A DNA stretch of 64,000 nt from Shewanella sp. UCD-KL12 (lineage in GTDB: Bacteria; Pseudomonadota; Gammaproteobacteria; Enterobacterales; Shewanellaceae). Position numbers and translations under genes: made by a program. Where the stretch lies: contig NZ_MPHJ01000013.1 in NCBI RefSeq assembly GCF_001957125.1, positions 62,001 to 126,000 of the forward strand, in the 5' to 3' direction. Positions 5,511 to 33,385 of the stretch are shown here, in pieces (within the stretch, counting starts at the first letter, position 1; each line of letters starts with the position of its first letter). The notes beneath the pieces were generated by a model. That model saw only the letters and a list, made by a program, of their open reading frames with translations. It searched no databases and was not told the DNA's origin.

Positions 5511-5594
5511 ACTTACCCAAGACTCGCGGAAACCACCAAAGTTTCTTTTTGCGAGGAAATTTTGGGGTTTTCGTGAGTTATTAGGAGAAGAATT

Positions 5595-6698
5595 ATGTAT
5601 TTAGCCACTCAATCTAAGATTCAAAAAGTTAAAACGCTGGTAAGTAAAAGTGGTGGTTGGCGTAATGTTTATGAGCACTTTAGTGGTCTTAAACTTGCTG
5701 TTGATCGCTACCCTGCGCAAGTTCCATGTCCAGCTACTGGAGACGGGAAAACTGTCTTTAGATTAGTAACGGGCTGGGAAGATTCAGGACAAGCGTTTCA
5801 TAATAACGAAGGCCGCTTAACGGATGGATTGAATGTTATAGCATTTTATTTGAAGTGTTCTATTAAAGACGCAGCTGATGAAGTGTTGAGGATCACAGGT
5901 GGTGATCTAACAACAGTCAAACGTTCAGAGGTAGCCAAGCAAATACACCAACAGAACATCAAAGCATCTACGTATTGTAGTGATGAAGTAAAGCAAAAGC
6001 GTCTAGCCAAGTTGCAGAAGGTACATTCTGAAGCAATGCCAGCTTACAAATCGCCTATTGCGATGAACTATTTGCGAAGTCGGGGATTAACCTTAACTGA
6101 AACAGAAGTTCAAAGATTTTCATCAACCCTCGGGTTTCATCCAGGGTTACCCTACTACTGTGATGATGAAAAGAAGTTCAAAGGTAAATTCCCAGCTTTA
6201 CTCGGGATTTTCAAAGATAAAGAGGGCAACAACCTCACCATTCATCGTATTTACCTCAAGCCTGATGGCAGTGGTAAAGCTGACGTTAGCAATCCTAAGA
6301 AATTAATGTCACCACCAAACTATATGGGTGGAGGTGCGTTTCGCTTAGGAGAGCCAATTAGTTTAGACGGTGGTGGTAAATACATAGGAGTTACTGAAGG
6401 TATTGAAACTGCGCTTGCGTTGTTTAATGCTAACAATCTCCCTTGTTGGCCATTGTACTCTGATACTGTTTTAGCACTTTTTGAGCCTGAATCTGACATA
6501 ACACATGTCGCGATTTGGTCTGAAAAAGAGCCAAGCAAAGCAGGTTGGAATTCTGCTGTGAAGTTACGTGACAAACTTAGAAATAAAGGTCTCTATTGCC
6601 AAATAGAATATCCTGATTTTCTTAACACAGAGAAAGAAGATTGGTTAGACGTTTTCATTAATTGTCCAACTAATATTCGAGGCTATATAGCTAAATGA
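5595..6698 (+). CDS. Toprim-domain primase-like protein
   Basis: 367 residues. The N-terminal 110 residues resemble the zinc-binding/primase start of P4-type and plasmid primases (CPATGDGKTVFRLVTG, then ITGG), but most zinc-ligand cysteines are missing. The C-terminal part is a Toprim-like fold with VTEGIETALALF near residue 260, where the Glu would coordinate metal, and a later acidic HVAIWSEKE strand. Such proteins are thought to make primers or act on nucleic acid during conjugative entry. No helicase domain is fused. The start follows AGGAGAAG. Its job here is inferred from fold only. Confidence 0.75.
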   Translation: MYLATQSKIQKVKTLVSKSGGWRNVYEHFSGLKLAVDRYPAQVPCPATGDGKTVFRLVTGWEDSGQAFHNNEGRLTDGLNVIAFYLKCSIKDAADEVLRITGGDLTTVKRSEVAKQIHQQNIKASTYCSDEVKQKRLAKLQKVHSEAMPAYKSPIAMNYLRSRGLTLTETEVQRFSSTLGFHPGLPYYCDDEKKFKGKFPALLGIFKDKEGNNLTIHRIYLKPDGSGKADVSNPKKLMSPPNYMGGGAFRLGEPISLDGGGKYIGVTEGIETALALFNANNLPCWPLYSDTVLALFEPESDITHVAIWSEKEPSKAGWNSAVKLRDKLRNKGLYCQIEYPDFLNTEKEDWLDVFINCPTNIRGYIAK

Positions 6699-12346: not shown

Positions 12347-12702
12347 GCCGATACATTATATGGGAAGTGATCAATATACTTTGCAGTGCTTCGTGAATGG
12401 TTAAGTGTGAATGGATTAACAACAGCTTCTAGTCCATATCGTTCTTGGACCTCAAGATATGAGAGAATTGACTGATATTCATCGGGTAATGCTGTGTGAA
12501 TGCTAAAAAAACGGCAAACAAAATCTATGATCACTTCTTCGGGTGTGGTGTCCATGCTTGATACCCGGCAATCAAACAAGCAGCGGCCAGCTATCCCTCC
12601 CCAAAAAAATTGGCTGTCAATTAGCTCTAACGAAAGAAAGTGCTCAGGTATCCCAACGGATGCGCATGCGTCTCTACAAAGCGCTCTTGTGTCGTTAATC
12701 AT
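12343..12702 (-). CDS. Hypothetical protein
   Basis: 119 residues, soluble, Cys-containing (five Cys), no family recognised. The ribosome site is weak, and the gene starts four bases after the end of the upstream leftward gene, so it is likely co-translated. Last gene of a three-gene leftward unit starting at 13484. Confidence 0.6.
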   Translation of the reverse strand: MINDTRALCRDACASVGIPEHFLSLELIDSQFFWGGIAGRCLFDCRVSSMDTTPEEVIIDFVCRFFSIHTALPDEYQSILSYLEVQERYGLEAVVNPFTLNHSRSTAKYIDHFPYNVSA

Positions 12703-12706
12703 AAGG

Positions 12707-13222
12707 TTACTTTTTAATAATGAAATGAAACTCGCTGCTATCAGGCGCTTTTGGAATTAAATATTCTGTGCCACTCGCAAGAGAAATTAGTAAACCATGT
12801 TTGGTCATTGCGCTGCTCAGGCCAAGCATAGAAAGTTTTTCCATACACATCAGCAAACCATTTTCAAAGTTTTCAGTTCTAGATAGCACTGTCAGCAGTG
12901 ACAACAGAATTTTTTCTTTAGTTGTTGCTACACACCAATCAACTGCTATTTCATCAAGCAGTAGAAGGTATCCTCCCTCTACATACACACAGTGAACAGA
13001 CTTTACCATTTGTAAAACAGTTGCGTCTGTAAAGCGGCATTGCGACTCATTTTGGAATCGCAGGTTGTTAAAGTTTTGAGAGCTGAGACTGAGGAAAATT
13101 ACCTCTCCATCAGTTAGCTGTATACAACTATGCGCTGCTTCAGGCCATTCAAAATCTTTGAATGCTAGGAGCTCTGATAATGACTTATCTGACAAGCTAT
13201 ATTGAAATGAAATGTTTTGCAT
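12707..13222 (-). CDS. Hypothetical protein
   Basis: 171 residues, no family recognised. Strands alternate with helices (QLTDGEVIFLSLSSQNF; HCVYVEGGYLLLLDEIAVDW), which looks like a compact globular protein. Middle gene of the leftward trio. Confidence 0.65.
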   Translation of the reverse strand: MQNISFQYSLSDKSLSELLAFKDFEWPEAAHSCIQLTDGEVIFLSLSSQNFNNLRFQNESQCRFTDATVLQMVKSVHCVYVEGGYLLLLDEIAVDWCVATTKEKILLSLLTVLSRTENFENGLLMCMEKLSMLGLSSAMTKHGLLISLASGTEYLIPKAPDSSEFHFIIKK

Positions 13223-13241
13223 TTTGCACCACTACAAGGAT

Positions 13242-13484
13242 TTAAAATGTGCCGAATTGGGTCATCAAATCTAAAAGGAAATTCTGTTGTGCCTTATTAC
13301 ACATGACTGGAGAATGACTAGTTATGTTGAAAAAATCTCCATTTGAGTACAGATATTTAGATGGAGTAGATTGAACGTCACTATGATCATGTTTTAGACC
13401 TCGGTTGGTACACACGAAGATTGTTAGCATCTCATCAGAGTAAACAGGTTTTATTTTCTCAATCGACATAATGTTTAGACTCAT
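13242..13484 (-). CDS. Small hypothetical protein
   Basis: 80 residues, first gene of the leftward trio; GAGGCG lies upstream of the ATG. No family recognised. The 280 bases to its right contain no gene and probably hold divergent promoters. Confidence 0.6.
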   Translation of the reverse strand: MSLNIMSIEKIKPVYSDEMLTIFVCTNRGLKHDHSDVQSTPSKYLYSNGDFFNITSHSPVMCNKAQQNFLLDLMTQFGTF

Positions 13485-13763
13485 AAAGTAAATCGCCTCT
13501 TCTAATTATTTGCTGCAGTTTATCAAGCTCATTGAAAGCTAAGGTAAAATAAGATGGTTAATTTGAATATTTAGAATATGAATTTTGAGTAAAACCTTCA
13601 TCAAAACTTTTCAAATAGGGGAAGTACACAAATAGACTACATACAGGTTTCCAAACTATGGCCCAATGGAGCAACGAACTTTTATTGCATAATCTGATTT
13701 TTGAAAAAAAAGCCAAGTGCTCTAACCTCGATAGTTGAAATTTAACAACAATTAAGGATTATA

Positions 13764-13943
13764 ATGATTACAAATCTTTTTCTATTTATATGCGCTGTTG
13801 GTTTTGCTATTGGTCTTTGGGGAGTGTTTGTTGAAGGGACTCAATTCAGTATAAGTTTGGGTCTTTTTATGTGCTTTGTGACACTTCTGATTGCGATATT
13901 TCTTTCATTGGTTTGTAAACCGTCAAAGAGTAAGGGTAAATAG
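13764..13943 (+). CDS. Small two-helix membrane protein
   Basis: 59 residues: MITNLFLFICAVGFAIGLWG starts a first membrane span, a short polar loop follows, then a second span and a basic tail ending KPSKSKGK. TAAGGAT lies before the ATG. The topology suggests both ends in the cytoplasm. No family recognised. Confidence 0.55.
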   Translation: MITNLFLFICAVGFAIGLWGVFVEGTQFSISLGLFMCFVTLLIAIFLSLVCKPSKSKGK

Positions 13944-14036
13944 GTAATAAGTCAGTATGTTAGCCTTCTAAGAGCTACAAGCAGTGTTTGCTTTAGCTCT
14001 TTTTTAAGTCTTAGAATGAGCATGTTTGAGGTGTAA

Positions 14037-14837
14037 ATGATAAATGATTTTGGTGATCTGCTTATACGTTTACTGTTGAGCACATCATTTTTACTTATCC
14101 CACTGATCTGCTTTCATTTTGTCCAGCGGTTATTTTTGGCAAGCATAACAAGCAGGTTAATGAGATCCTATGGCCTGATATCGGTCCCTATTCACGAATT
14201 ATCACACGTTGTGGCATGTTTAATATTTAGGCATAGAATTGATAGAGTCGTGTTATTTGACTTCTATGCCAAAAATGGCGCTCTAGGCTGTGTTCAGCAC
14301 AGCTATTCATCTAGATCGTTATGGCAAGTTGTAGGTAACTTTTTTATTGGAATAGCTCCAATATTTGGCGGCATATTAGCTACAGTTTTATGTACTTCCT
14401 TATTGGTTAGTAATGGAGACCATTGGATCACAGACTTAATCAACCTGGAAGCACTTTCACCATCAGAAGGTAGCCAGTTAATCATGTATTCACAGTTTTT
14501 TATGAAGTGCACAGTTCTTAACTTTGAACATCTAACTGCTAGGTTCTCAGATAACATGATAATGACATTAGTTTGGGGAGGGCTGGTGGCTACCATTGGT
14601 CTTTACTTAACACCTTCAGTCGAAGATTTGAAAGGAAGTTTCAAGGGGTTTATTGTTTTAACTTTGGTTCTATTCCTTTTACAGTTGGTAATTCATGAAA
14701 AAATCGATTTCGAATTTATAGAAAGGAGCTCTGTAGTTTTAAGTTCAATTTTATCACTAGCTTTGACCGCTTCGGTTTGCCTTCTTCTCGTTACGCGGCT
14801 ACTACTAGGTGTATATTCAGCAGCTACAGATAAGTAA
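14037..14837 (+). CDS. Membrane protein with HExxH motif (M50-like)
   Basis: 266 residues with about six hydrophobic spans. The motif HELSH at about residues 57-61 lies at a membrane segment, as in site-2-protease (M50) zinc metalloproteases, and GNFFIGIAPIFGG about 40 residues later could be the conserved core helix. The usual NPDG motif near the end is not visible, so it may be a distant member or a non-peptidase relative. GAGG precedes the ATG. The strong terminator at 14972-15000 follows. Function unknown; regulated membrane proteolysis is a guess. Confidence 0.6.
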   Translation: MINDFGDLLIRLLLSTSFLLIPLICFHFVQRLFLASITSRLMRSYGLISVPIHELSHVVACLIFRHRIDRVVLFDFYAKNGALGCVQHSYSSRSLWQVVGNFFIGIAPIFGGILATVLCTSLLVSNGDHWITDLINLEALSPSEGSQLIMYSQFFMKCTVLNFEHLTARFSDNMIMTLVWGGLVATIGLYLTPSVEDLKGSFKGFIVLTLVLFLLQLVIHEKIDFEFIERSSVVLSSILSLALTASVCLLLVTRLLLGVYSAATDK

Positions 14838-22808: not shown

Positions 22809-22997
22809 ATGGATTTAAGCGATAAAAGGCGTGAGATCAGCATCATATCTCTAACGACTGCCGCTAGCATGATTGAAGATTATGTCAGTTCTGGGGTTAC
22901 AACTGAAGATATCGATCTAAGCGATGATGAAATCGAAATGCTCGGTACTGAGAACAAAAAACGGCTGCTAAATTACGAGCTATGGCAGCAAAACTAG
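22809..22997 (+). CDS. Small acidic protein, 62 aa
   Basis: 62 residues, acidic and helical (GVTTEDIDLSDDEIEMLGTE). GAAAGAG precedes the ATG. No family recognised. Confidence 0.5.
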   Translation: MDLSDKRREISIISLTTAASMIEDYVSSGVTTEDIDLSDDEIEMLGTENKKRLLNYELWQQN

Positions 22998-23021
22998 AAA
23001 AATCTTGATATGGGATACAGC

Positions 23022-23273
23022 ATGGCTCGAATCAAACTCCGACTGATCGATGAGATTACAGGCAGAGAAATAGGCAACATGCTTGTAGATGTTGAAAGCA
23101 TTGAAACTGTAATTGAATACGATGAACCAAAGAATGTTGACCACTGTTCGATGATTACCATGAAGCCAGTTATTGATGGTTCAGATGGCAATGGCGGCTT
23201 TAAAATGCAAAGTACATATCATGTTGCACAGTCAGTAAATGAGATTGAAGCATTAATTGAAAATGCACAATGA
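23022..23273 (+). CDS. Small protein, 83 aa
   Basis: 83 residues, mixed strands and helices, starting MARIKLRLIDEITGREIGNM. The start is taken after GGATACAGC. Converging neighbours overlap or abut (the next junction begins three bases after the stop). No family recognised. Confidence 0.55.
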   Translation: MARIKLRLIDEITGREIGNMLVDVESIETVIEYDEPKNVDHCSMITMKPVIDGSDGNGGFKMQSTYHVAQSVNEIEALIENAQ

Positions 23274-23283
23274 AGGAAATAGC

Positions 23284-23481
23284 ATGGTTGTCTTTGCTAA
23301 AAAACTCAATAAACAATGGCGTGTATCGTTTGAAAATTATGAGCGAATTAGCGGTTTTGGGCCTTTATTTCAAGAAGAAATAGACTCTGGTCAATGCGAC
23401 GTAGAAGAGGCTTGGTCAAGGAATATCAAGTTTTTGGAAGATGTGTTTGCTGATGTTTCACACGTAAGACCGCCACAATAG
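23284..23481 (+). CDS. Small protein, 65 aa
   Basis: 65 residues starting MVVFAKKLNKQWRVSFENYE, with junction GGAAATAGC before the ATG. No family recognised. Confidence 0.5.
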   Translation: MVVFAKKLNKQWRVSFENYERISGFGPLFQEEIDSGQCDVEEAWSRNIKFLEDVFADVSHVRPPQ

Positions 23482-23503
23482 TTAATAATGGATACAACAT
23501 GCC

Positions 23504-23923
23504 ATGAGTCTAGCGGCACAAGAAAGCAAATCAGATCTGCGAAAAGCAAAGGTTTTATATATTGAGGCTCGTAGAAACTTACAAATAGCAATCACAACAC
23601 CTCCAAGCATGAAAGTAGAGTCGTTTGTTTCTTGGGAGCAACAGGAACGCTCGATTAGTGGCGGTTGTCACCATAATCATGATTGCGGGCTCAGTAGTTG
23701 GTTTTTTGTGCGAGATAACGAAGTGTGGTCATTAAATTCTGATTCGTCCGACGGTGGGTGTTGGAACTCTAAAGGTCCACTAGTTAGTGGATACAAGTCT
23801 GCGATGACTAAATGCATCATGAATGCCCTTGAAGAGTTGGATAGCAGGAGAGAAGTTCTTGATGCTGCCGAATTGAAATTTCGTGCAGAGAGTTATGGCT
23901 ATGAACGCAAAAGAATGAAATAG
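23504..23923 (+). CDS. Hypothetical protein
   Basis: 139 residues, with a His/Cys cluster (SGGCHHNHDCGLSSW) near the middle that could bind metal, and helical ends. The junction GGATACAAC is followed by an ATG at 23499 that stops after one codon (ATG CCA TGA); the real frame starts at the overlapping ATG at 23504. Its stop TAG forms the beginning of the next TAGGATACAGC junction. Confidence 0.55.
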   Translation: MSLAAQESKSDLRKAKVLYIEARRNLQIAITTPPSMKVESFVSWEQQERSISGGCHHNHDCGLSSWFFVRDNEVWSLNSDSSDGGCWNSKGPLVSGYKSAMTKCIMNALEELDSRREVLDAAELKFRAESYGYERKRMK

Positions 23924-24213
23924 GATACAGCATGTACTATGTAGATCTTTTTCTGGAAAGCTAGACTGTAGATTTTTGACTCTGGAAAACCCAATTGGGA
24001 ATCCAGCTTAAAGCCTTTTAATCGCTTATTCTAAAAGGCTTTGAAGTGGATTTAACAAGCGAAGTGCGTTAGTTGAACTCTGGACATTGTTCCAGATAAT
24101 TAGCGCTTAGAATCAGTTTTAGGGCCGTTTTGGTCAAACTCTGGAAAAGTCTTACGCCCATTGCCAGGGCAAGGTTTCCAGACTTCCTCCAGAACGCTAC
24201 CTACGGAGTATGC
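23924..24213. other. Gap with an empty start junction
   Basis: GGATACAGC-ATG at 23923-23934 leads into a frame of only ten codons, so this junction is no longer attached to a gene. CTCTGGAAAA/CTCTGGACAT-like direct repeats occur between 23980 and 24150. No gene is seen. Confidence 0.5.
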
Positions 24214-28053: not shown

Positions 28054-28623
28054 TTACTCTATTTGCACTAAACTTAGCTTTGCATGATTATCAAAGGAAA
28101 TCTGTTCATCGATGTTATAACATTCATCTTGTTCAATCAGTGCACTCAGCTTGTCAATGTCATCCTTTGACGACAAGTAGGCAAATAGTGATAATGGTCC
28201 AACGGTGCCTGATTGTTCCAAGGTGTTAAATATTTCATCTTTAACCACGTAAAGCCTATTTTCTTGAGCTGGTTGCTTAAGGTTGGAAACCTCCACCACA
28301 TAGCCGCTGTCAGTTAGACGAACTAAGAAGTCAACCCAGTTGGTTTCGGCGCGTTTCAACACCTGGTTATTGGCAATGAGTCTATTTAGCTTAAGCAATT
28401 GCCCTTCTAAACTCACCGATTGGGCCCTGACTATCATCTTCTTAATATCAGATTTTATCGGTTTATTAATGGGCTTCTTATACTGTGCTTTTAATCGCTT
28501 AAGTAAGTATTGATTGCGCTTTTCGAAGGGCATGAAGCGCGGTTGCTCAGCCACCTCTAAATACAAACTGATGAGGTTATTATGACAACACTCAGATAAC
28601 AGAAGTTGGTACGCTTGTGCCAT
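28054..28623 (-). CDS. Recombinase-module protein C
   Basis: 189 residues, helical and basic in the first 110 residues (KRNQYLLKRLKAQYKKPINK), followed by a strand-rich end. It starts on the last base of the recombinase stop codon (TAATG), so it is translationally coupled. No family recognised; an accessory factor for the recombinase is inferred from the arrangement. Base composition is more GC-rich than the neighbours. Confidence 0.7.
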   Translation of the reverse strand: MAQAYQLLLSECCHNNLISLYLEVAEQPRFMPFEKRNQYLLKRLKAQYKKPINKPIKSDIKKMIVRAQSVSLEGQLLKLNRLIANNQVLKRAETNWVDFLVRLTDSGYVVEVSNLKQPAQENRLYVVKDEIFNTLEQSGTVGPLSLFAYLSSKDDIDKLSALIEQDECYNIDEQISFDNHAKLSLVQIE

Positions 28624-29744
28624 TATTTACTCCACCTTGCTTGTGCCATGGCCGATTCTTTAGCCAAAATATTGCGGCCGTAACGATAGACCATTTCTGA
28701 AGATGACCAACGCCCTGCTTGCTGCACTTCTAATACCGAATAACCGGCACTTAACAGATCCTGACAGGCGCCGACTCGTGCACTGTGGCCAGACCAATCC
28801 GATATGCCCCGGATAAGTTGTGGTCGATGCGTACAAAAGCTCAAATAAGCCTGTTTAAATACGCGGTCAATGGTGAACCGTGAGATCGGGTTATGTTGCG
28901 TTGCAGGGTTACCATTCTTAGCCATTTTTTTAAATAAATACACGCTGTCATTGATGCTATGTGACAGGTAGCGTTCAAGGATCTCAACGCATTGGCGACT
29001 AAGCATCACGACATCTGGCTCGCCTGATAAGTTAGTTTTGGTAAACGGGATAAGCAGTGTCGCCCGTCCATCATCATGATATGTAATATGAGATAACTCA
29101 ATCCTGGCTAACTCACTTTCACGCAGCATGGTTTCATACGCGGTGATCATTATCGCCAAATTTCTGCACTCAAGCGGTGATTGATGGTTTACCCACAGGC
29201 TAACCAGTTCATCAATGTGGTGCGAGCGGAACGGACTCGCCTGCGTCACCATCTCACTGGCCCTTGCTTTTTGCTTACGAATACCGCCAACGATATCCAT
29301 CACTTTTTGGGTGTGTGAAGGGGAAGGTAACCCTGCTGCAAGGTGGATTTTACTGACCGCCCAGCGGTATTGGCTCAAGGTATTCATTTTAACGACAGAC
29401 TTTTTATCATTAATGTACGCAATAAATGTCGCGGCCGAAGCAGGCAATGAAACATGATTATGTTCATTACACCACTGTTCAAATACATTCCAATAAATAA
29501 ACAATGACTTTAGGGTGTTGTCGCTCAAGGCGCTATCATTGTTAGCAAAATCTGCTAAAAGCTGGTTTATCAGAGACTTAACTAGGTCATTATCAATATG
29601 CTCTGCCGTCAAAGATAGCTGAGATTTAAGGCGTTTTTCCAATAATGATCGGTTGTCTAACAATGACTCTTCAAGCGTATTCGGGGTCAGTGTATCTGCG
29701 TTCGCCAAACTTGAGTTGACTGCAGCGATAAGATTTTTAGTCAT
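28623..29744 (-). CDS. Tyrosine site-specific recombinase
   Basis: 373 residues with an N-terminal SAM-like core-binding domain and a C-terminal catalytic domain. Visible active-site pieces are ETMLRESELARIELSHI (first Arg), HSARVG (His-x-x-Arg) and AGRWSSSEMVYRYG (Trp and nucleophile Tyr). The ATG at 29744 overlaps the stop of the upstream gene by 8 bases and is preferred to a start at 29807. Such enzymes integrate elements or resolve dimers. A loxP-shaped inverted repeat at 30381-30414 is a candidate substrate. The three-gene module is richer in G+C than the window, so it was probably acquired. Confidence 0.88.
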   Translation of the reverse strand: MTKNLIAAVNSSLANADTLTPNTLEESLLDNRSLLEKRLKSQLSLTAEHIDNDLVKSLINQLLADFANNDSALSDNTLKSLFIYWNVFEQWCNEHNHVSLPASAATFIAYINDKKSVVKMNTLSQYRWAVSKIHLAAGLPSPSHTQKVMDIVGGIRKQKARASEMVTQASPFRSHHIDELVSLWVNHQSPLECRNLAIMITAYETMLRESELARIELSHITYHDDGRATLLIPFTKTNLSGEPDVVMLSRQCVEILERYLSHSINDSVYLFKKMAKNGNPATQHNPISRFTIDRVFKQAYLSFCTHRPQLIRGISDWSGHSARVGACQDLLSAGYSVLEVQQAGRWSSSEMVYRYGRNILAKESAMAQARWSK

Positions 29745-30246: not shown

Positions 30247-30336
30247 GCCTCACTCCTTATTATGACGGAAACACCATGACTGAACATTCTCGTCAAACAG
30301 TAGCATCACCCCGAAAAATGACAAACCCTCAATTAG

Positions 30337-30451
30337 GGTGACACCATTTAATAAAAGCTATTATAACGCTGCTACAATCCTTTATGCAACATAATGCTAA
30401 TTATGTTGCATAAAACTGATATTTTCAAGAGTGATTATAAATGGTGACACC
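30337..30451. promoter_or_regulatory. Paired GGTGACACC boxes flanking the loxP-like site
   Basis: GGTGACACCATTT (30337-30349) and AAATGGTGACACC (30439-30451) are near-inverted copies, each a palindrome around its centre base. They flank the inverted repeat at 30381-30414 almost symmetrically. They could be operators of the module or accessory arm sites for recombination. Confidence 0.55.
30381..30414. repeat. loxP-shaped inverted repeat, candidate recombination site
   Basis: TTTATGCAACATAAT (30381-30395) and ATTATGTTGCATAAA (30400-30414) are perfect 15-bp inverted arms around GCTA. Read as 13-8-13, the centre ATGCTAAT is asymmetric, which is the layout of loxP-type sites. It lies 135 bp from the start of the recombinase module. 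An operator is the alternative. The rest of 30247-30638 holds no gene. Confidence 0.6.
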
Positions 30452-30638
30452 ACAAAAGAAATCAACGGTAAATCGATAGGGTAAGTAAGGCTTGAGGGGT
30501 AATCGGCTTATCAGTTTTTCTTTAACACAACAATTTAATTACAATTGGTGACGAACCACTCATTTCGTACAACGATGCATTGAAAATACGCTAAAAAACA
30601 ATGATGTTAATACCATACCTACTGAAAATGGAGAGCTC

Positions 30639-32267
30639 ATGCAGAAGCCAGAGAGGGAAAAGCCCACGTCTAATCATGGTGAAGAAACAATTAGGTACAG
30701 GCTGATATGCTGGGCACTATTTGCAAAACATAATGCGACTGAAATTGCTTTAATTCCTCATCATTTTATCTTGTACATTTTTAGACTCGAGGTGGAACCT
30801 AAGTATGGCTTTTTTAGAGGTTTTGCTTCAGTCATGCTTATACTTATTACAGCGAGCACAGTCACAGGTGTAGTCTTATCATATTGCAGTTTAAAAAATG
30901 CTGAAGAGTCATCACTCAATTCATATAGAATGTCACTATACCAAACGATAGGAAGTAATAACTATAGCTCTGATGCGGTTAAAAGAGCTTTAACAAACTT
31001 ACTTGATATGGAAACAGTTAGTGGTATATCTATTGGGACAAAACAGTACAGAAAAAACATATATGATATAAATTTATCAGGTGAGTTATGGAACACATCA
31101 ATAATTAACCACTATATTTCCGGTGATATGGAAAATCTCAGCCTATCAGGTAATCTACTAGACAGCACTTTAGATATCTCAACAATTGAAAATTCAACCC
31201 TCCACCTTAAAGGAAACAATTACTTGGTGAAGGTTGATAAACTTGGCAATGAACAGTTTAATGAAAGTAAGGACAATTTACATGACGTAAATGTTCACTC
31301 TAGCAATGGCAATGCATATTTAAAAATAAATAAATGTAATAATAGCCTGTTAGAAATCTCTTCGATGAACAACTCTAACCTGCAGAGTGATGAGGCTGAG
31401 GAGTTTTTTTTAGATCTTGACGCTGACTACTTATCAGGGTTCACGAGAGACCGTAATGGCTCTATAGTCCAGGTTCCACAAACACATCCATATGGTCATT
31501 ACGATAAGATTAAGGTCTTGTTAGATAGGCAAATATTCAAACTGAATAGGGATGAACTAACGCGTCATTTTAGCTCTCAATTAAGTAAAGTTAACGAACA
31601 ATTAGCACTTGTACACTTTAAAAGAGCATTAACAGTAGACACTGGCAATAATTGTGACTTTGAGCTATCAGGAGATTTCGGCACATTTTCTGTTAAACAC
31701 GGATCAAATATAAATGTTGAGATCAAAGATTTTTTTGGCATTAACTCATTTCTAGCCCTTGGCAGTACTGCGGCAATAATTAATTCAAGTGATTTAATTA
31801 ATGGGTTTGAAAATTCAAGTATCGCTAAACAGAATAAACTTTATAGATTACCAATTCATTTATCTGAAGGTAACTTCACAATAAATTCAATTGATTCTGA
31901 TTTGAAAGGTGGGATTATCCAATATAGGGAAGGATCACAAGTGCTCATCAACACTGAAATATTGAATTCCACAATTTTTTATGGAAAGACAACTAATAAT
32001 ATTAAGTTTAATATAACTAGAGGGCATAACCTCAGCTTTGTCTTTGTTGATAATGTAGACTGTGAACAATTAAGCAAGATAGAAGGTCATGATACTTTTA
32101 TCTTTAATGACTCTTCAAGTTGCTCATTTGGCCACTCCACCAATGAGTCGGATTACTTGTTGAATGACATCAGCATTTGGGACTTAAATTCAATATTATA
32201 CCTAGGCTATCTCAAGCACTACCAAAATGTTACTCAAAAAGTAGTGTACCAGATAGTAAAACACTAG
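30639..32267 (+). CDS. Membrane-anchored beta-rich protein
   Basis: 542 residues. A cytoplasmic N-terminal part, a membrane span at about 64-88 (ASVMLILITASTVTGVVLSY), then a long outside region of short strands rich in Asn, Ser and Leu (e.g. LSGNLLDSTLDISTIENSTL), which suggests an irregular beta-helix or pentapeptide-like solenoid. GGAGAG precedes the ATG. No named family. Surface or envelope function is plausible. Confidence 0.65.
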   Translation: MQKPEREKPTSNHGEETIRYRLICWALFAKHNATEIALIPHHFILYIFRLEVEPKYGFFRGFASVMLILITASTVTGVVLSYCSLKNAEESSLNSYRMSLYQTIGSNNYSSDAVKRALTNLLDMETVSGISIGTKQYRKNIYDINLSGELWNTSIINHYISGDMENLSLSGNLLDSTLDISTIENSTLHLKGNNYLVKVDKLGNEQFNESKDNLHDVNVHSSNGNAYLKINKCNNSLLEISSMNNSNLQSDEAEEFFLDLDADYLSGFTRDRNGSIVQVPQTHPYGHYDKIKVLLDRQIFKLNRDELTRHFSSQLSKVNEQLALVHFKRALTVDTGNNCDFELSGDFGTFSVKHGSNINVEIKDFFGINSFLALGSTAAIINSSDLINGFENSSIAKQNKLYRLPIHLSEGNFTINSIDSDLKGGIIQYREGSQVLINTEILNSTIFYGKTTNNIKFNITRGHNLSFVFVDNVDCEQLSKIEGHDTFIFNDSSSCSFGHSTNESDYLLNDISIWDLNSILYLGYLKHYQNVTQKVVYQIVKH

Positions 32268-32470: not shown

Positions 32471-33385
32471 ATGAGTAATCGAGCAACCTTAAATTCATAC
32501 ATATTAATCAACTATCAAAGGCTAGAAGAAGCGCTTGCTGAACTGGCAGAGTTTGTTTGTTTGAATTTGATTCAGGTAAATATTTATCAATTACCAGTTA
32601 ACAATCTCGGGGACGAATCTGAAGTACCGACCCAAATTGAGATTCTTTCACAATTTACAGAAGTTAATGATCAGTCAAAAACATTTGTTAAGAAGGCTAT
32701 TACTCAAAACAAGATAAATCCCTTCAATGAAAATACATATTTAGCGAAAAGATATCCAGGCATCATCGTTTTACCTCAGAACCTTAAGCAGCAGTTTACA
32801 GATTTAAATGAGCAAGCTAATAGATTAAGAGTCATTTTTAGTGATTCCGTTAAGGTTGGATTCGACAAAAGACAAGATATACATGAAAACCTGCATAAAT
32901 TGCTCCCGAATGTAGTTCTTCTGAGTGCAGTTAGGCAAATAAAGATCTTAGATGGGTCCTTTGAACATGTAAGCTCCGTTAATTTCTATTGGCGAGCTAA
33001 GAAGATAAAAAAGCACGTAAAGCATGATGACGCCCTGAACATACTCGACTCAGGGCTTAAGGCTAGAAATTTCGAGTGCTTTGGATTAACAAAAGATGAA
33101 GTTGTTAACCGGCATGGAAAGGAAACAGAGTTACTCACTCATGTGCCCACCAGCTCTAAGATCTTTGAGATCCGCTTCGCACGAGTGCAACCATTTATCG
33201 ATATATGGTGCAAAGGTAGCGGAGAAACACGAGCAAAACGGCACATAAGTAGTAACGCTACAATACCAATTGTTTTGTTTAAGAAGCCCGAAAAAATTAA
33301 TGATTTGAAAGATTATGTGTATCGCGAACCACCAAAAATTGAACACCCAGTACTGATTCAACGGAAACATTGGTACTTAATCTAA
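32471..33385 (+). CDS. tus: Tus-like replication terminator protein
   Basis: 304 residues, close to the 309 of E. coli Tus, and collinear with it: PGIIVLPQNLKQQF in the first half, then FYWRAKKIKKHVKHDDALNI (Tus has [20 protein letters not shown]), and near the end RFARVQPFIDIWCKG (Tus KRPVKVQPIARVWYKG). Tus binds Ter sites as a monomer and stops replication forks from one side. It stands with its own promoter region. Ter-like motifs (TATGTTGTAAA) cluster at 42457-42908. On a plasmid it may order or end replication, or handle collisions with transfer; this is inference. Confidence 0.85.
   Translation: MSNRATLNSYILINYQRLEEALAELAEFVCLNLIQVNIYQLPVNNLGDESEVPTQIEILSQFTEVNDQSKTFVKKAITQNKINPFNENTYLAKRYPGIIVLPQNLKQQFTDLNEQANRLRVIFSDSVKVGFDKRQDIHENLHKLLPNVVLLSAVRQIKILDGSFEHVSSVNFYWRAKKIKKHVKHDDALNILDSGLKARNFECFGLTKDEVVNRHGKETELLTHVPTSSKIFEIRFARVQPFIDIWCKGSGETRAKRHISSNATIPIVLFKKPEKINDLKDYVYREPPKIEHPVLIQRKHWYLI

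Follow-up and report, generated by a model that had tools for sequence, protein, structure and literature searches.

The window analysed here, a 64,000-nucleotide stretch of a 129,609-bp contig (C5) of Shewanella sp. UCD-KL12, contains a three-gene module on the minus strand and, upstream of it, a long inverted repeat flanked by two boxes. The module opens with P2 (29737-30246), a 169-aa protein without a family match and the candidate box-binding protein, and continues with a Cre-type tyrosine recombinase of 373 aa counted from ATG 29744 (28623-29744) and a 189-aa DUF2913 protein (28054-28623). The initial annotation had described these genes as coupled and more GC-rich than their surroundings, and both statements are borne out: the P2 gene and the recombinase start overlap by 8 nt, the recombinase stop and the DUF2913 ATG overlap by 1 nt, and GC content at 28-30 kb is 42-44% as against 33-38% in the adjoining kilobases. 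DUF2913, previously listed simply as a third protein, was assigned by profile search; its single-sequence structure model is poor (pLDDT 37). On the other side of the repeat a 542-aa protein (30639-32267) with an apparent N-terminal membrane segment and a repetitive pattern is transcribed away from the module and has no family match better than E 0.05.

The recombinase matches Pfam Phage_integrase and aligns with Cre structures over residues 58-368, spanning the core-binding and catalytic domains (phmmer, E 5.6e-40), at 32.3% identity to P1 Cre. The catalytic Arg, Lys, His-x-x-Arg, Trp and Tyr positions are kept in all 16 aligned recombinases, so that the earlier assignment as a tyrosine recombinase is confirmed and narrowed to a Cre homologue. 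Among the tblastn matches listed, the best plasmid relatives belong to Shewanella, namely S. aestuarii (68% identity), S. xiamenensis (44%) and Shewanella sp. ANA-3 (38%), and a Vibrio sp. 0908 enzyme is 40.5% identical over a shorter stretch; the plasmid loci used for comparison were hand-picked from a listing of 60 out of 4,370 records that the recombinase matched. The same query gave two weak matches in genome contigs, both in Poribacteria bins, and no match in viral contigs.

The lox-like site itself occupies positions 30381-30414, with no strand assigned, and reads TTTATGCAACATA-atgctaat-TATGTTGCATAAA; it was recognised by an inverted-repeat scan and by its counterpart on the S. aestuarii plasmid (L002:8039). 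Its 15-bp perfect arms enclose 4 bases, as first described, and the 13-8-13 reading with an asymmetric 8-base spacer holds as well, the asymmetry being confined to the four central bases. Nothing else in the window equals the repeat: among perfect inverted repeats with spacers of up to 20 it alone has arms of at least 13 in the 64 kb, and 20 first-order Markov sequences yielded none with arms that long. A terminator at this position was considered and rejected, as the stem has just 3 G-C pairs. The initial annotation had seen no second copy in the window, and the site indeed proves to be single in the 5.69-Mb genome with up to three mismatches allowed and in the contig with up to six.

Sites of the same geometry recur at related loci. 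When the 1.2 kb upstream of the recombinase was scanned for 13-8-13 inverted repeats whose arms match at 11/13 or better, 16 of 25 loci proved to have one, VCre and Vika-like loci included, at a density of 0.57/kb compared with 0.099/kb elsewhere (26 in 261,484 bp); the Oceanisphaera repeat among the 16, whose spacer is unlike the others, may be of another kind. The 25 loci are related, in that two S. xiamenensis plasmids share one site and ANA-3, 11FHM2, G024 and pSA70-2 are close, and five further loci (L008, with its site on the 3' side, L009, L010, L011 and L024) were left out of the scan. Five loci (OS117, G024, pSA70-2, ANA-3 and S. baltica 11FHM2) carry the lox site 2.8-4.8 kb upstream of the recombinase, and lox is followed, in the four of these that are annotated, by a DUF4942 gene. 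In S. algae and S. putrefaciens pSA70-3 the recombinase and boxes are present, yet there is no upstream site of at least 11/13; of the remaining loci without one, an A. hydrophila record is cut and G060 (L038) has its nearest site 3' of the gene, the recombinase start used there being about 1 kb off. The site letters at p0908 are, we assume, those of VloxP, those at a V. coralliilyticus plasmid vox, and those in ANA-3 SloxP; ANA-3 is presumably the source of SCre, and Vibrio sp. 0908 that of VCre. At VCre-type loci lacking P2 (L018, L020, L025, L003) a different motif, GTTAC..TGTCAC-like, was noticed by eye about 30 bp outside lox, and is perhaps the site of a different partner protein. The most informative counterpart is that of S. 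aestuarii, TTAATGCAACATA-actgtaat-TATGTTGCATTAA, whose arms are 12/13 identical to those of the window while its spacer differs; constrained arms around a free spacer are as predicted for a recombinase site. Taken together, the neighbouring Cre homologue, the site architecture, the single copy and the kept arms with a changed spacer make it highly probable, on sequence grounds, that the locus is a plasmid-borne Cre-type recombinase with its native lox site, in line with the loxP comparison drawn initially and with the recovery of VCre and Vika-like sites by the same scan.

The site is flanked by two copies of GGTGACACC found by motif scan, neither assigned a strand: box A (30443-30451, extending to TGGTGACACCA at 30442-30452), centred at +49.5 from the lox centre, and box B (30337-30345), centred at -56.5. 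These are the only occurrences of GGTGWCACC in the contig. The earlier description of near-symmetric boxes on both sides stands, but its distance of about 45 bp is only approximate, because the centres lie at 56.5 and 49.5 bp and the edges 35 bp (box B) and 28 bp (box A) from the 34-bp site. Corresponding centres are at -55.5/+49.5 in S. aestuarii and -57.5/+49.5 in S. xiamenensis, and these two and the window are the three of six replicons in which lox has a box of at least 8/10 at 43-63 bp to either side; OS117, ANA-3 and p0908 have no such pair. Two-sided boxes fell around 0-5 of 20,000 random points in each of the six replicons (5, 4 and 4 in the window, S. aestuarii and S. xiamenensis lineages), although the window is not an independent case in this test since the motif was derived from it. 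Elsewhere the arrangement is one-sided: OS117, ANA-3, G024, pSA70-2, LC6 and 11FHM2 have a box of at least 9/10 at 112-115 bp from lox, the SCre clade carries its 9/10 boxes on one lox side only, and in AP025015 the nearest box is 272 bp away. S. algae and pSA70-3 have a row of four perfect TGGTGTCACCA copies that extends to the P2 start at intervals of 97, 100 and 100 bp (L017:3052-3359 and L039:8675-8982); two copies lie inside a 100-bp direct repeat, and by eye there is only a weak lox candidate, between the first two boxes. The asymmetry of the boxes follows the spacer in the window, S. aestuarii and S. xiamenensis; as a proof of coupling to lox orientation it was dropped, because OS117 has a weaker box (about 49 bp) on the opposite side.

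The boxes keep company with P2. In 15 of 16 loci pairing P2 with the recombinase, TGGTGNCACCA is matched at 9/10 or better no more than 300 bp from lox or, where lox was not found, no more than 450 bp before P2. The 16 loci are the window and G024 plus 14 of the 15 plasmid records with a P2 match. By contrast, none of 11 lox loci in which tblastn found no P2 has a 9/10 box within 300 bp of lox, a count that omits L021 (site cut by the record end), L026 (unlike spacer) and L038. The P2 loci are related, so these co-occurrences are not independent events. Six P2 plasmids were added to the count later, five with boxes and one, S. decolorationis pNi1-3, without: in the 6 kb upstream this plasmid has neither a site of at least 11/13 nor a 9/10 box despite the presence of P2 and recombinase, and an integron integrase gene lies there, the lox region being lost too. 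The weakest P2 match, in NZ_CP106875 (L024), has no adjacent Cre-type recombinase and no 9/10 box. That P2 presence tracks the boxes makes P2 likely to be the protein that binds them. P2 has no family, profile or PDB match and no recognised DNA-binding domain; ribbon-helix-helix (RHH) families, to which the initial annotation had provisionally pointed, were covered by these searches. Its conserved C-terminal stretch and the helices of a poor single-sequence model (pLDDT 42) are compatible with that fold but no proof of it.

A further box lies beside the operon start. In the window this is the degenerate box C (TGGTGTTTCCG, 7/10; 30266-30276, minus strand), found by motif scan with its centre 25 bp before the P2 start and a candidate operon operator. 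Equivalents sit 21-24 bp ahead of the start in S. xiamenensis (8/10) and in S. algae and pSA70-3 (10/10), and overall a box is present 13-25 bp before P2 in 10 of 15 loci tested, scoring at least 8/10 in four S. xiamenensis plasmids, S. algae, pSA70-3, OS117, pSA70-2 and pNi1-3; for three of the S. xiamenensis plasmids, where the annotated start is further upstream, the start of the fourth was used. It is absent in S. aestuarii, ANA-3, 11FHM2, AP025015 and LC6 (G024 was not among the 15). This placement suggests that P2 may repress its own operon.

Several features place the module on a plasmid. The contig encodes ParA and ParB (20.5-22.7 kb), a PRTRC ParB (17.6-19.3 kb), together with transfer genes of F type and MOBH type (TraI_2, TraG_N, TraH, TraF, TraC), and the lox module thus appears to sit on a ParAB/MOBH conjugative plasmid; no terminal overlap of the contig was seen. 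Outside the window the same contig carries its own DNA polymerase III beta clamp (22959-24059, L032:2959-4059; TIGR00663, 1.1e-50) and an NAD-dependent DNA ligase-like gene (12443-14284, L031:12443-14284), near the PRTRC ParB, an unusual private replication kit, and genes at its ends (L031:162-3290 and L035:1536-2723) show partial similarity to Dnd phosphorothioation proteins (DndC-like; DGQHR/DndB domain). Cumulative GC skew has its minimum at 19.2 kb, beside ParAB, and its maximum at 89.9 kb, 2.5 kb from lox (92.4 kb). The maximum is shallow: the curve rises steadily on the left, while on the right it falls over about 15 kb only and is then flat or slightly positive, and 1 of 200 block shuffles reached the observed range. 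The skew maximum, not the minimum, is the extreme closer to lox in all six replicons, the distances to the maximum being 2.5 kb here, 35.7 in S. aestuarii, 17.6 in OS117, 2.8 in S. xiamenensis, 38.9 in ANA-3 and 4.7 in p0908, which is a tendency and not proof. PMC11724359 places P1 loxP opposite the origin, with skew, and states that mid-size enterobacterial plasmids tend to encode their own resolution system. KOPS polarity at lox showed no bias, the numbers being small.

A Tus-like replication-terminus protein (32471-33385, plus strand; Pfam 1.7e-24) is encoded 2.1 kb from lox, linked to the module by co-occurrence alone. Tus matches occur in eight Shewanella plasmids, seven of them among the 15 with P2; in S. 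xiamenensis pHD6416-NDM the match lies about 69 kb from lox, so the closeness is not general. Nothing in the contig or in the stretches of six relatives matches the E. coli Ter consensus convincingly, and TATGTTG in the lox arm, considered as a Ter trace, was judged a chance match, with 28 occurrences in the contig on both strands. In AP025015 (L126) the recombinase has, about 3-4 kb away, a DUF2913 gene and a gene with a terminus-binding annotation; by tblastn the latter does not match the Tus of the window.

Two other accounts of the inverted repeat were weighed. It might be the operator of a repressor and not a crossover site, as it stands upstream of an operon and is overlapped by the second hexamer of a promoter-like sequence; the stretch holds three such promoter-like sites, against 1.7 expected by chance. 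The 13-8-13 geometry, in which the arms are conserved while the spacer varies, the recovery of that geometry at VCre and Vika-like genes and the presence of the site in loci with differing upstream genes render this account very improbable. Alternatively, the site could be one of the pair of attachment sites of an integrating element, attP beside its integrase. A tyrosine recombinase does adjoin it, integrative elements too can carry such conjugation genes, and of the 98 genomes searched 13 others match the arms at two to three mismatches, compared with 3 for a reversed control pattern. The enzyme is, however, Cre-like, the contig carries ParAB, the plasmid relatives are circular records, and a genome search of the kind proposed in the initial annotation gave no second copy in the strain's own genome at up to three mismatches and nothing at zero or one mismatch in the rest of the 98. 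We regard an attachment site as extremely unlikely. One lox copy was counted in each of six replicons (that of the window being a contig), which fits dimer resolution over an attachment pair, as originally proposed, and the site probably serves to resolve plasmid dimers. Similar sequences were noted in passing. The single-contig chromosome of a same-genus genome has a repeat of 13-8-13 shape that departs from the arm pattern at two positions (G047:C1:3807211-3807240). The inner 10 bp of both arms match exactly in two viral contigs, neither of which has a relative of the three module proteins better than E 0.5 (tblastn); one stretch stops 9 bp past the match. Such an exact match lies at L113:7217-7244, on a viral contig with phage-like genes by eye, about 0.6 kb from an apparent tyrosine integrase gene (5531-6634) that is no close relative of the module recombinase.

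The role of the boxes is more evenly contested. Granting the lox reading, the boxes could be transcriptional operators only, through which P2 represses its own operon and neighbouring promoters with no part in recombination, and we give this account a chance only a little short of even. The position 13-25 bp before P2 is the classic place for an operator, and the lox-side boxes of the SCre clade precede the DUF4942 gene, which could be the regulated gene. Against it, the box-lox-box unit of S. aestuarii is displaced 80 bp upstream as a block (lox centre 231 bp before the P2 ATG compared with 151 in the window, boxes 281/176 compared with 201/95) and leaves no box of at least 7/10 beside the ATG, the distances from the lox centre (49.5 and 55.5-57.5 bp) are constant in three lineages, and in the SCre clade the boxes stay beside lox with P2 2.2 kb (OS117) to 4.3 kb away. 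The block shift and the boxes remaining at lox tie the outer boxes to the site.

With the locus read as a recombinase and its native lox, two recombinase molecules would bind the 13-bp arms, a tetramer would pair the two lox copies of a plasmid dimer, and strand exchange across the 8-bp spacer would return monomers, to be partitioned by ParAB. P2 would bind TGGTGTCACCA-type boxes, repressing its own operon through the box beside its start, and on the flanking boxes would probably build up a nucleoprotein complex at lox, biasing the reaction towards resolution and away from fusion. Such an arrangement, in which P2, bound about 50 and 56 bp to the two sides of lox, forms a synaptic complex able to resolve dimers but not to fuse monomers, in a plasmid terminus region with its own Tus, is put forward tentatively, as a possibility we on balance doubt. 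A comparable role is described in PMC11724359 for XerCD at cer/psi, where ArgR or ArcA together with PepA, bound beside the core site, control resolution. The likeness, accessory proteins beside a core site, would hold only if control by P2 is real; XerCD differs in having two host recombinases, 11-bp arms and one-sided accessory DNA, and is no relative of the module.

The closest system is that of S. aestuarii pPN3F2_1 (NZ_CP050314), which shares the three genes and their order (recombinase 68%, P2 51%, DUF2913), the box-lox-box arrangement described above and a Tus homologue 3-4 kb away, but has another spacer and a unit lying further from P2; its genes are annotated only as recombinase, DUF2913 and hypothetical. 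The ANA-3 plasmid system, to which we take the names SCre/SloxP to belong, shares the site geometry, the spacer family, boxes beside the site and an adjoining P2 homologue (28-29%) next to its 38% identical recombinase, whereas its arms have another sequence, its site is 4.2 kb upstream of the recombinase with the DUF4942 gene and others between, its boxes are one-sided and no DUF2913 is annotated in the stretch. Cre/loxP of phage P1, VCre/VloxP, Vika/vox, Nigri/nox and Panto/pox have in common the enzyme family and a 13-8-13 site close to the recombinase gene; the VCre and Vika-like loci differ in having no P2 homologue and no 9/10 box near lox. To our knowledge the arms of the window are unlike those of lox, VloxP, SloxP and vox. 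The arm letters were not found in the text of open-licence papers, nor was a description of the P2-and-box architecture found there. Jelicic et al. 2023 (NAR 51:5285) reportedly present, by their title, further Cre-type enzymes, and the pair could be among them. By sequence comparison, the recombinase/lox pair is a new member of the Cre-type systems, of which P2 and the boxes make it a variant. The site-search logic used here is the same as that of PMC4957104.

With its distinct arms the recombinase/site pair is a possible orthogonal tool. Its main interest is that the clade containing SCre keeps a dedicated operon partner and conserved boxes beside lox. Cre is the textbook recombinase without directionality, and Cre, SCre and VCre are employed with nothing beyond their 34-bp sites, so that boxes are not needed for catalysis there. 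A natural Cre relative with an accessory complex, if that is what the module encodes, would make it possible to test directly how a Cre core gains selectivity for resolution, and, should P2 exert topological control, the tool enzyme SCre would be a member of the family with an unnoticed native partner protein and boxes.
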